Below, in pieces: positions 8,819-12,333 of a stretch of DNA of 64,000 nt (its first letter is position 1; each line of letters starts with the position of its first letter). The DNA is from Sorangiineae bacterium NIC37A_2. GTDB taxonomy: Bacteria > Myxococcota_A > Polyangia > Polyangiales > Polyangiaceae. A model generated the notes under the pieces. That model was not told the origin of the DNA and did not search any database. It saw only the letters and a program-made list of their open reading frames with translations. The stretch spans positions 123,642 to 187,641 of the forward strand of contig NASX01000001.1 in NCBI GenBank assembly GCA_002085155.1. Direction: 5' to 3'. A program made the translations under genes and the position numbers.

Positions 8819-8907
8819 GGCCCCGCGAGTCTGAGCAGAAAGAGCCCTCCTGGTAAAGTTCAGAAGAATCCCTCGACGATCGGGGGGTGAGCTCCTACGC
8901 TCGGCGC

Positions 8908-9669
8908 ATGCCCCAAGGCCCGGGAAAATCGAAGCAACCGCCGCCCTCTCGCCTGGACGAGCTGGACGAGTCCGAGGTCGAAGGCGCCGAGGACATGCTC
9001 CTCGAGGCCCTCGATGCGCTCTATGAGCTCGCCGAAGAGGACCCCGAGGAGGCCCTCGAGATGCTCGACAATCTGCCCCCGGAGGTCCGGCAGCATCGCG
9101 AGTTCCAAATCGCCGAAGCCGCCGTGGAAAAGGCTCTGGGACGCCTCGACGCCGTGGTGGCGAAGCTCAAAAAGCTTCTCGAAGACGAGCCCGACGACCC
9201 CGATCTTCATTATCTCCTCGCCGACGCGCTCGAAGATGCGGGCGCCGACGAAGAAGCCCAACGGCACTACGATAAGACGTGGCTCCTCGACGTCGAGGCG
9301 AGCGTCCCCTTGCCGGAGGAGGTCGACCAGGCCATCGAACGCGCCGCCCTGCGCGCCATCGAAGAACTTCCCGAGCAATTCCGCGCCCCCTTGAAGGGAG
9401 TTCCGGTGTTTTTGGCTGAGCGTCCGACACGCGAAGAGGTGGCCAACGGGTTCGACCCGCGAGCTCTTGGGCAGTTCGAAGGTTCGGGCATCGAGGCGCC
9501 GGACGGGGCCGTCGAGCCCCCCAGTCGCATCGTTCTCTACACCCAGAACCTCGCCTCCGAGTTCGAGGGAGAGGAGCTGGAAGCCCAGGTCGAGCTCACC
9601 GTCCTCCACGAGCTCGGTCACTATTTCGGTCTCGACGAAGACGACATGGTCCGACTCGGGCTGGACTGA
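8908..9669 (+). CDS. TPR-like protein with C-terminal zinc metallopeptidase domain
   Basis: 253 residues from ATG 8908; an in-frame GTG at 8887 is an alternative, and neither has a convincing ribosome-binding site. Residues about 10-130 are very acidic helices resembling TPR repeats (LEALDALYELAEEDPEEALE; LHYLLADALEDAGADEEAQR). The C-terminal domain ends with HELGHYFGLDEDD, the zinc motif at 234-238, typical of the small cytoplasmic DUF1025-type metallopeptidases. There is no signal peptide. Function unknown; a protein-interaction role for the TPR part is likely. Confidence 0.8.
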   Translation: MPQGPGKSKQPPPSRLDELDESEVEGAEDMLLEALDALYELAEEDPEEALEMLDNLPPEVRQHREFQIAEAAVEKALGRLDAVVAKLKKLLEDEPDDPDLHYLLADALEDAGADEEAQRHYDKTWLLDVEASVPLPEEVDQAIERAALRAIEELPEQFRAPLKGVPVFLAERPTREEVANGFDPRALGQFEGSGIEAPDGAVEPPSRIVLYTQNLASEFEGEELEAQVELTVLHELGHYFGLDEDDMVRLGLD

Positions 9670-9840
9670 GCTCTCTCCGGGGGCTCAACTTTCTGAGTGA
9701 TTTCAGAGTTTTCCAGCTTCCTCGGCGAACGCCCGAGAAAAAAGACGCCCCCGGGTGTCACGATCCCACCTGCTTCTGCCTAGACGATCTGCGGGCCCCC
9801 TCGGATGGTCCAAGGTGAGCGCCGCGGAAATGACGGAATC

Positions 9841-9963
9841 ATGAAGCAGCTCAAGATGTTTACTGTGGTGTCCTTGCTCATGGCGCTCCCTGCGGTCGCC
9901 ATGGCCGGCGCTTGTCCGTGTGGTTCGGATTGCCCCTGCGGCGACTGTCCCTGCGGCAAATGA
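9841..9963 (+). CDS. Exported 40-residue Cys-rich peptide
   Basis: Forty codons from ATG to TGA. The first ~23 residues are a classical signal peptide (MKQLKM, hydrophobic core, cut near AMA or AMAGA). The mature tail is only about 17 residues and carries six cysteines as three CPC units separated by Gly, Ser and Asp (ACPCGSDCPCGDCPCGK). It looks like a metallothionein-like metal ligand or a disulfide/redox sensor. The Shine-Dalgarno is weak. It sits 27 bp upstream of an ECF sigma gene on the same strand, which strongly suggests a shared transcript or regulatory role. No family recognised. Confidence 0.72.
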   Translation: MKQLKMFTVVSLLMALPAVAMAGACPCGSDCPCGDCPCGK

Positions 9964-9990
9964 CGCGCCGGAGGGGCCGGAGCAGCGAGC

Positions 9991-10527
9991 GTGGATCAAC
10001 AAGGCAAAGAAGCACTCAAGGTGCTGATGATTCGGCTCGCCGATGGCGATCGAACTGCCTTTGATCCGATCTTCACCGCGCTCTGGCCCCTTGTTCTTCG
10101 CTTCTCAGAGCGATTTCTCGCCGATCCCCGCGACGCAGAGGACGCAGCCCAAACCGCACTCATCAAACTATTTTCTCATATTTCGGACTTCGATCCGGAG
10201 CGCGACGCGCTCGCCTGGGCGCTCGGGATCGCCGCTTATGAGTGTAAGACGCTGCGCAAGAAGAAGCAGCGCCGCCGCGAGACCGCGGGTGAGGTCCCCA
10301 TCGAAGCGGACGAGCGGGCGGGACCCGAGAGCCTCGCGAGTCAGCGTGAAACCGAGGCTATCGTGCGAGAAATCCTGTCCACACTGAGCGAGAAAGATCG
10401 CGAGCTGGTCCTCATGCATATGGAGGACCGAAGACCCCCTGGAGACGACGCTACTTTCCGAAAAAGACTCTCCCGCGCGCTGCGCCGCTTCAAGCTCAAC
10501 TTCACCGGAGGCCCAAACGATGCATGA
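9991..10527 (+). CDS. ECF-type RNA polymerase sigma factor
   Basis: 178 residues from GTG 9991, preceded by GGAG 8 bp upstream. Region 2 runs from about residue 10 to 85 with DPRDAEDAAQTALIKLF and WALGIAAYECKTLRKKK. Region 4 runs from about 118 to the end (LSTLSEKDRELVLMHM). The usual region-4 helix-turn-helix is unusually short: after MHMEDRRPPGDDATFRKRLSRALRRFK little is left of the recognition helix seen in standard ECFs. Its stop overlaps the start of the next gene (ATGCATGA), so the downstream membrane protein is probably its partner. Confidence 0.85.
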   Translation: MDQQGKEALKVLMIRLADGDRTAFDPIFTALWPLVLRFSERFLADPRDAEDAAQTALIKLFSHISDFDPERDALAWALGIAAYECKTLRKKKQRRRETAGEVPIEADERAGPESLASQRETEAIVREILSTLSEKDRELVLMHMEDRRPPGDDATFRKRLSRALRRFKLNFTGGPNDA

Positions 10528-11089
10528 CAGTAGGATCGCCGAAGACCCGAAAGAGCGCGCTCGATTGCTCGCTCGGCGCGCCTACGAGCGCGGACGTCTC
10601 CGCTTGGGCCTGTTGCCTGCGCTCCTGACGCTTCTGTTTACTTTGATCTCGCTCTCCCTCGGACGCGAGCCGCTCTACTCCGGTGCAATTGGCCTAGGGC
10701 TCGCGGCGATCGCCGTGCTCTTCACTTACCGAGGCGGCATCCCCGGGCGGGCCGTGCTCCCCGGACTCGTCGCCGGCATGCCTCCGCTGCTCTTTCCCTG
10801 GGCTCTCCGCTCCGTCGGGCACTACTGCACGAGCGGCTCTTGTCATTCGCTGTGCCTGCTCGGCTGCGTGAGTGGCGGGCTGGTCGCGGGATTCTTGCTC
10901 GGGAAATGGGCGACAAATCAGAGCGCTCGTTACACGTTCCTCGCTTCCGGTGGGATCCTAGCTACTGGTGCAGGACTGCTCGGCTGCACGATGGCCGGAG
11001 CGGCAGGGATGGTCGGGATGAGCGCCGCCCTCGTGCTCTCGTCCGTCCCGATCTTGATGCTCAGTCCGACGCCTTCGGGTGCTCGTTAA
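10520..11089 (+). CDS. Multi-span membrane protein with a Cys/His cluster, putative anti-sigma factor
   Basis: 189 residues. A basic cytoplasmic N-terminus of about 30 residues precedes five or six hydrophobic segments. Between helices lies HYCTSGSCHSLCLLGC (four cysteines, two histidines, about residues 104-119), and a further Cys occurs in a later helix. Start and upstream ECF stop overlap by 8 bp. Its layout recalls NrsF (DUF1109), the six-helix anti-sigma of Caulobacter SigF with two conserved cysteines, but I cannot claim homology. Inferred role: membrane sensor holding the ECF factor, responding to metal or thiol stress. Confidence 0.62.
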   Translation: MHDSRIAEDPKERARLLARRAYERGRLRLGLLPALLTLLFTLISLSLGREPLYSGAIGLGLAAIAVLFTYRGGIPGRAVLPGLVAGMPPLLFPWALRSVGHYCTSGSCHSLCLLGCVSGGLVAGFLLGKWATNQSARYTFLASGGILATGAGLLGCTMAGAAGMVGMSAALVLSSVPILMLSPTPSGAR

Positions 11090-12333
11090 GGCTCACGCAC
11101 GCGGGGGCTCTCGAAATCCGAGGGGCGCGCGAGCGCATCGCCGATCAGCTCCGGGACCAAGTGCGGTTCGACGCCGCGCCAAAAGACAGTCCAGTCGCCG
11201 ACCCGCTGCATGCCGTCACACACGGCGCGATACCAGCCGTTCGCGCGGTTCTCCGTGCGTGAACGCCAATAGAGCGAAGGGTTCCGCCTCACCATGTGCC
11301 ACCAAAGCTCCTGCCCGAGACCTTCGCCCTGCTCTTCGGGGAGCACGGCAAACTTGCTCAGGTAGGGGACACGGTGCCCCGGCTCGGTGAGCGCCACCCC
11401 ACGGTAACCCTTCTCGAGGTGGATCTCGAGCGGCGTTCGGCCCCAAAACCCCGGTCGAAGCTCGCGTCCAAAGCTCGCCTCGAGCAAGGAGTGCAACCTG
11501 TTGCGATCGATCTCGTCCCAGCTCGAGAACTTCTCGACCTCAGCGCCCAAGCGGATGAGCGTTCCTTCGCCACGCACCGTAAAGAGCTCACGGAGCAAGG
11601 ACAGAGGAGACGCGATGGTGACTGCGGTCTGAGGTCCTGACCCGGACCAAAGCAGCTCAAGGAGGCTGCGAGCGCGACGCAGCCAGGCCACATCCAAAGG
11701 CGGCAGGAAACCGCCCCGAACGAGCGGAGCTTGGTCGCTCCTGAGGTTGATCACAGAGAGCCCGCTCGCGTGCCCGAGCAAGACGTGGCCCGGCGCCACC
11801 TCAAGACGACCCACGCCGTGAGGACCGAGACCACCCCGGCCGCGCAAGATGATGATCTTCCGCGGCGAAAGCTTCACGAGCAGCTCCTCGAGATCCGGGG
11901 CAATCGCCGCGTCCTCGGGGAGACCAACGGAGCCCACCGCGCGCTCTCGGAGAACGAACACGGGGATCTCCGAGCGCGAGAGAGCCTCTTCGGCTTTTTC
12001 GAGGGCGTCCTCCGAGTAAGGAATGCGCACGGCGGGGAGCTCCGCCTCACGGAGCGCGTCGAACAGCCACCCGACCTCTTCTTCGGTAGGATTGTCGAAG
12101 GCGCCGACCGCGAGCGAGACCGAAATGTCGAGAGCATGGAGAAGCGCCAGCTGCTCGGCGAGCGTTCCGGCGCGCTCCCGGAGCACAGCGTCCGTCGGCA
12201 ACACGACGGCAAATCGCCCGCGCGGAACGGCTCGAAACAGGCGCAGGTACATCTGCGCTTCCGTTGGAGACCCGACGCTGTCCAAAAAGGAGAGCAGCGC
12301 CTGGCCCGGAGAAGGCTTGTCGGGTGCGGTCAT
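11086..12333 (-). CDS. N-acetylglutamate synthase, vertebrate-type (AAK-like + DUF619 NAT domain)
   Basis: 415 residues. The N-terminal ~250 residues resemble a diverged amino-acid-kinase fold (IIILRGRGGLGPHGVGRLEV; SGLSVINLRSD). The C-terminal ~150 residues are the NAT/DUF619 acetyltransferase of vertebrate and fungal NAGS: YLSKFAVLPEEQGEGLGQEL, then SLYWRSRTENRANGWYR and DWTVFWRG. The predicted reaction is acetyl-CoA + glutamate to N-acetylglutamate, the first arginine step. Its kinase half looks degenerate, so phosphorylation is doubtful. No arg genes are adjacent. It overlaps the upstream convergent membrane-protein gene by 4 bp. Confidence 0.75.
   Translation of the reverse strand: MTAPDKPSPGQALLSFLDSVGSPTEAQMYLRLFRAVPRGRFAVVLPTDAVLRERAGTLAEQLALLHALDISVSLAVGAFDNPTEEEVGWLFDALREAELPAVRIPYSEDALEKAEEALSRSEIPVFVLRERAVGSVGLPEDAAIAPDLEELLVKLSPRKIIILRGRGGLGPHGVGRLEVAPGHVLLGHASGLSVINLRSDQAPLVRGGFLPPLDVAWLRRARSLLELLWSGSGPQTAVTIASPLSLLRELFTVRGEGTLIRLGAEVEKFSSWDEIDRNRLHSLLEASFGRELRPGFWGRTPLEIHLEKGYRGVALTEPGHRVPYLSKFAVLPEEQGEGLGQELWWHMVRRNPSLYWRSRTENRANGWYRAVCDGMQRVGDWTVFWRGVEPHLVPELIGDALARPSDFESPRVREP

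Follow-up and report, generated by a model that had tools for sequence, protein, structure and literature searches.

NrsF of Caulobacter crescentus is a membrane protein with six spans and two cysteines directed to the periplasm, and the loss of these cysteines frees the sigma factor SigF (PMC3511200). The SigF-NrsF genes occur with Sec-exported, copper-chelating cysteine peptides, and their promoter is autoregulated (PMC3511200, PMC12452194). This SigF-NrsF-bufferin system is the closest known to the locus described here, in which an ECF sigma gene is likewise followed by the gene of a six-span membrane protein with conserved cysteines predicted to be periplasmic (PMC3511200, PMC12452194). 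The locus differs from it in several respects. The membrane protein has no profile similarity to NrsF, which is encoded separately in the same genomes; the promoter motif is another one, and region 4 of the sigma factor is reduced. Unlike the bufferins, the peptide is much shorter, of the CPCG type, and has no MNIO/DUF2063 partner genes at the locus. As interpreted below, the locus also resembles SigAb-AabA-AabB of Acinetobacter, a copper-responsive ECF operon that regulates itself, has partners in the membrane and the periplasm, and directly controls a small regulon; AabA is a 107-aa CnrY-like anti-sigma factor, and an exported cysteine peptide is not described there (PMC12153292). A myxobacterial ECF sigma factor with a metal theme is shared with CorE and CorE2 of Myxococcus xanthus, which are metal-dependent and control copper oxidases, ATPases and efflux (PMC3107203, PMC8999054). 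In CorE, a Cys-rich domain at the C-terminus is the sensor and there is no anti-sigma gene, whereas the sigma factor here lacks such a domain and has a membrane partner encoded next to it. CnrH-CnrYX of Cupriavidus is a metal-sensing ECF system as well, with sensing in the periplasm by a separate sensor, CnrX, and a small anti-sigma factor, CnrY. The proposed periplasmic metal sensing is common to both, whereas CnrX and CnrY are separate proteins and the metals are Ni and Co.

In the window, the whole stretch of 64,000 nucleotides that was analysed, the three genes and their promoter are arranged as listed in Table 1. The stop codon of the peptide gene is separated by 27 bp from the GTG start of the sigma gene at 9991, and the stop of the sigma gene (10527) overlaps the ATG of the membrane-protein gene (10520). 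This layout, including the six cysteines of the CPC peptide, agrees with the first-pass annotation.

Table 1. Coordinates of the operon features in the window
Feature	Position	Strand	Remarks
ECF-type promoter	9757-9782	+	-35 GTCACG 9757-9762, 15-bp spacer, -10 GCCTA 9778-9782
Exported Cys peptide gene, 40 aa	9841-9963	+	signal peptide 9841-9906; predicted mature GACPCGSDCPCGDCPCGK at 9907-9960
ECF sigma factor, 178 aa	9991-10527	+	sigma2 residues 28-95; reduced sigma4 residues 112-172, lacking the first HTH helix
Six-span membrane protein, probable anti-sigma factor, 189 aa	10520-11089	+	contains HYCTSGSCHSLCLLGC
H101-C103-C108-C112-C116 cluster	10820-10867	+	predicted periplasmic loop, TM3-TM4
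C156 (GCxC motif in most relatives)	10985-10987	+	periplasmic end of TM5

Of 59 close genomes, 18 have a relative of the membrane protein; for the class the figure is 79 of 290 genomes, and in a phylum-wide set that includes other classes it is 28 of 284. The locus counts given here refer to a set of 60 related loci with flanks. In 58 of the 60 loci, the membrane-protein gene is directly preceded by an ECF sigma gene, which belongs to a single family and mostly overlaps it. A Cys-rich short ORF with a signal peptide lies 5' of the sigma gene in 33 of these 58, and 25 are without the peptide. A strict detector of such ORFs found them at 28/58 sigma genes versus 3/4408 random windows of the same DNA, the relatives being not independent of each other. 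Both the association of Cys-rich exported peptides with ECF genes and the co-occurrence of the trio across Myxococcota, as raised in the first-pass annotation, are borne out by these counts and by distant members: the same gene arrangement is present in other Myxococcota classes (L180, L182, L183, L186, L189), and also on an Acidobacteria MAG contig (L216). Among the named hosts of the membrane protein are strains of Sorangium cellulosum, a species with all three genes, and Myxococcus xanthus AM003, in which the peptide is missing. When the presence of the peptide was mapped on the tree of the membrane protein, 7 changes were counted versus 18.5 in shuffles, which makes the peptide an old part of the operon that was lost or gained several times. 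No description of an operon that combines an ECF sigma factor with a Cys-rich peptide was found in the open-licence papers searched, as the first-pass annotation had supposed. The trio is conserved and, in these papers, undescribed; it would work like SigF-NrsF-bufferin, yet the tests place it outside those families. One further locus, L207, labelled as a Phycisphaerales MAG, is nearly identical to the Myxococcales locus L052; a misbinned contig or a recent transfer is likely.

The membrane protein matches no Pfam or NCBIfam model above the cut-off. In the AlphaFold2 model, the protein is a bundle of membrane helices, predicted with confidence (pLDDT 89.2). The mean number of K+R is 5.6 at the N-terminus, 0.9, 2.2, 0.7, 2.9 and 0.0 in loops 1-5, and 2.3 at the C-terminus. 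These alternating charges fit the positive-inside rule, and therefore the N-terminus is predicted to be inside. According to this rule and the AlphaFold2 helices, the conserved cysteines fall in loops 3 and 5, which are predicted outside. Among 50 relatives, C103 is conserved in 45, C108 in 41, C112 in 48, and C116 and C156 in 47 each; H101 is kept in 36. The H-x-C..C..C..C motif is present in 17 of the 25 peptide-less loci and in 22 of the 33 peptide loci. The likeness to NrsF in the first-pass annotation holds for the predicted layout, that is, six spans, an inside N-terminus and conserved periplasmic cysteines, and fails for homology: no relationship is detected by profile (PF06532), the hhalign probability against 13 NrsF sequences is 0.7%, and PF06532 has no match in the whole genome of the window. 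True NrsF genes are located elsewhere in related genomes. As a search of the PDB gave no confident fold match (best Foldseek E value 0.5; VIA Z below 8), no family is assigned by fold. The predicted topology and the gene order agree with the earlier view of a membrane protein whose cysteines face outward and whose place is that of an anti-sigma factor. From gene order, layout and the analogy to NrsF, it is a probable anti-sigma factor. Five peptide-less loci (L067, L069, L083, L100 and L102) form a subclade that lacks the H-x-C-x4-C part of the motif. They often lie beside small MerT-like ACC.LP proteins, some of which have divergent promoter copies, and this subclade is possibly a mercury version of the system.

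The sigma factor is recognized by the curated whole-protein model TIGR02937 (62.7 bits, cut-off 42.9) and by the region 2 model PF04542, Sigma70_r2 (1.4e-12), which matches 47/47 members of the sigma family. The canonical region 4 model PF08281 reaches only 16.3 bits in the window protein against a cut-off of 25.7, covering positions 3-24 of 54, and region 4_2 is found at E<=0.01 in just 2/47 family members. The protein is named an ECF variant because the whole-protein model matches despite this shortfall. In the AlphaFold2 model (pLDDT 91), the C-terminal helices are 112-131, 134-144 and 154-172 only. As no helix lies between 134-144 and 154-172, the first helix of the DNA-reading HTH is missing. 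The stretch from D136 to R157 has 18-25 residues across the family; the corresponding stretch in NrsF-linked ECF factors of the same genomes is longer and keeps the full LSxxxAAxVLGTT helix. RKRxxRAxxRLR is nearly invariant in the alignment of the sigma family. The window protein has a single cysteine (C85) and ends with FTGGPNDA; the Cys-rich C-terminal domain of the CorE type and the linker CxC are absent.

The motif GTCAC[GA]-N14/15-GCC[TC]A is found by a simple criterion directly 5' of the operon in about 50/60 loci, and it lies farther 5' in L052, L059 and L063. Like the reduced region 4 of the sigma factor, this shared promoter was out of reach of the first-pass annotation. The promoter stands before the peptide gene; in the peptide-less loci, it stands directly before the sigma gene or before another small exported gene. 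In L079, L089, L104, L106 and L107, the promoter copy ends just 5-10 nt from the ATG of the peptide gene. Since the promoter precedes all genes of the operon, the operon is probably autoregulated, with the peptide gene on the same transcript. In L052 (about -1000 to -600 before the membrane-protein gene), L059, L063 and L207, all of them peptide-less, the first gene after the promoter codes for a different small exported protein, about 134-142 aa long, which contains TPPSQDCLLREHRITSVAPYRVEERIG and has no Pfam match. The first-gene slot of the operon seems to be interchangeable.

The product of the peptide gene is MKQLKMFTVVSLLMALPAVAMA followed by GACPCGSDCPCGDCPCGK, with its six cysteines in three CPC units. 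The first-pass annotation had given the Cys-rich tail 17 residues; the tail itself is confirmed, and its predicted length is 18 residues, with the likely cleavage after AMA. The peptide has no Pfam match, and its sole NCBIfam match (E 0.24) lies inside the signal peptide, so that it is placed in no described metallothionein family. A Sec signal peptide and Cys motifs, which are bufferin-type features, are predicted from the sequence. Related peptides are GGCPCADCPCPDCPCG in Sorangium (L056), GPCPCGTSCPCGAGCPCGH in L087, SDCPCCPDCPCDDCPCPNCPCG in L101 and ECCAPGAACCKPGAACC in L055. The peptides vary greatly, from about 37 to 99 residues, with CPCG, CCP and CxC types and different spacing. In close pairs, the changes at the first, second and third codon positions are 5, 3 and 14 (L087/L092) and 4, 3 and 10 (L078/L081). 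This excess at the third position and the persistence of Cys tails across lineages indicate that the peptide is very likely translated. MNIO (PF05114) and its partner gene were found neither among the neighbouring ORFs scanned nor among the recurrent neighbours, and the MNIO of the window's own genome sits on a different contig. MNIO is absent from the whole of genome G013, which has the trio; thus MNIO modification would not be required, and an MNIO-modified peptide was rejected. In L159 (G259), a stand-alone exported Cys-rich frame, containing YCQAMGTLQAHCCCPHG and then APCCCEPG, lies 3' of a promoter copy, and the operon of that genome is without the peptide.

A matrix was built from the primary promoters and scanned over the loci with a threshold of at least 18 bits. 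There were 14 secondary matches versus 0 in the reversed sequence, and three of the 14 are the distant operon promoters of L052, L059 and L063. Secondary promoters were located before a multicopper oxidase in L052 (Cu-oxidase_3, 5.7e-44), before outer-membrane efflux factors in L050, L052 and L062, before a Cupredoxin_1 protein in L072 and L076 (8e-18), and before small proteins in L083 and L100 that are MerT-like by eye only. In L049, a second oxidase has a weaker copy (16.4 bits) in front of it. The heavy-metal theme of the first-pass annotation is therefore reflected in the promoter-linked genes of relatives. With the primary region left out, secondary promoters occur in 9/25 peptide-less versus 0/33 peptide loci (Fisher p = 0.0002, kinship ignored). 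This mutual exclusion suggests that the peptide and the detoxification genes fill the same role. By raw recurrence, the neighbours include a CusA/CzcA RND protein (TIGR00914, 8.9e-236), a CzcB adaptor, a copper P-type ATPase and a CopA-like oxidase; the promoter evidence for the regulon is stronger than these neighbour frequencies. Some partners are not copper-specific, namely the RND pumps (L062 and L210 of M. xanthus) and the MerT-like proteins of one subclade. No copper gene was found near the operon of the window, nor any other convincing promoter copy in its genome: a scan allowing one mismatch gave 87 matches versus 73 in the backward control, which is noise. The assignment to copper thus rests on the regulon genes of relatives, and from these genes the soft metal involved is probably copper.

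We consider it likely that the locus is an ECF operon which responds to metal, controls its own transcription and has as its first product a metal buffer for the periplasm. In the resting state, the membrane protein would keep the sigma factor at the inner membrane face, probably via its conserved basic N-terminal segment. A soft metal in the periplasm, most likely Cu(I), would be bound by H101, C103, C108, C112, C116 and C156, and this binding would reshape the membrane protein and free the sigma factor. The freed sigma factor would transcribe its own operon from GTCACG/GCCTA; the conservation of this promoter is observed, and its recognition is presumed. The first gene would give a short Sec-exported peptide, cleaved to the 18-mer, whose six cysteines are arranged as CPCG units. 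The unmodified 18-mer would chelate the metal as a metallothionein-like buffer, and the switch would be reset. In peptide-less relatives, the same promoter is placed to drive multicopper oxidase, cupredoxin and efflux genes instead.

The first-pass annotation had proposed that the peptide signals to the membrane protein. As part of the sensor, it would bind metal or be oxidized in the periplasm and donate the metal or a disulfide to the membrane-protein cysteines, or act in a metallochaperone relay. The position of its gene between promoter and sigma gene, its co-conservation, and the cysteines predicted to be periplasmic in both proteins are consistent with such a role. However, the 25 peptide-less loci keep the switch and the promoter, and the membrane Cys motif is mostly retained; moreover, peptide length and spacing vary more than expected if the peptide docked to one fixed partner. 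We regard this role as improbable. Because the switch persists without the peptide, and promoter-linked detoxification genes are found only at peptide-less loci, the peptide would be an effector rather than a messenger; it is probably an output of the regulon, a metal chelator, and not a signal. Copper-sensing leader peptides such as CutF/CruR are known. Similarly, the short ORF could be a regulatory leader without a job for its peptide, in which translation slowed by Cys/Pro codons or by metal binding of the nascent chain controls the translation of sigma. The ORF is short, lies 5' on the same transcript, ends Cys/Pro-rich and has a small gap to sigma in most loci. Such a leader is very unlikely, as the RNA folds of five loci, at the point where the peptide and sigma genes meet, are unexceptional (z -1.16 to 0.04), the gaps to sigma vary widely, and the conserved cleavable signal peptides argue for export.

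It is rather unlikely that another soft metal (Hg, Cd, Zn, Ag) or thiol or envelope stress is sensed, with the peptide protecting against it. Cys clusters bind many soft metals, the peptide-less subclade with the altered motif adjoins MerT-like small membrane proteins, and NrsF answers Cr and Cd, not diamide or peroxides (PMC3511200). Most of the named promoter-linked or neighbouring genes, however, are of the copper type (multicopper oxidase, cupredoxin, copper ATPase). Returning to the metal-buffer operon, we suggest tentatively, at somewhat below even confidence, that it represents a separate, undescribed family of metal switches. In such a family, an ECF group minus one HTH helix would read a strict -35 GTCACG, an anti-sigma factor unrelated to NrsF would bind metal via periplasmic His/Cys, and an unmodified CPCG peptide would serve as buffer and reset, the logic having been reached independently of SigF-NrsF-bufferin.

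If the metal-buffer reading is right, copper would be sensed and buffered at the bacterial envelope by a compact set of parts, namely a single promoter, a membrane protein that is itself the sensor, and a tiny peptide for which no modifying enzyme is required; the locus would also point to likely places of overlooked small metal-binding peptides. It also raises the question of how DNA is read by a sigma factor with a trimmed region 4. Culturable Sorangium and Myxococcus strains would allow an immediate test of the promoter that defines the regulon. In M. xanthus AM003 (L210), the sigma/membrane pair, of which no published description was found, has the same promoter, and a second copy precedes an outer-membrane factor plus an RND pump. 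In the window, the gene at 11086-12333 (-) has a C-terminal NAT (N-acetylglutamate synthase) domain, and its product resembles fused acetylglutamate kinase/synthase models with scores below their cut-offs. Just 5' of the operon, the gene at 8887-9669 (+) encodes a fusion of TPR repeats with a Zincin_1 metallopeptidase-like domain.
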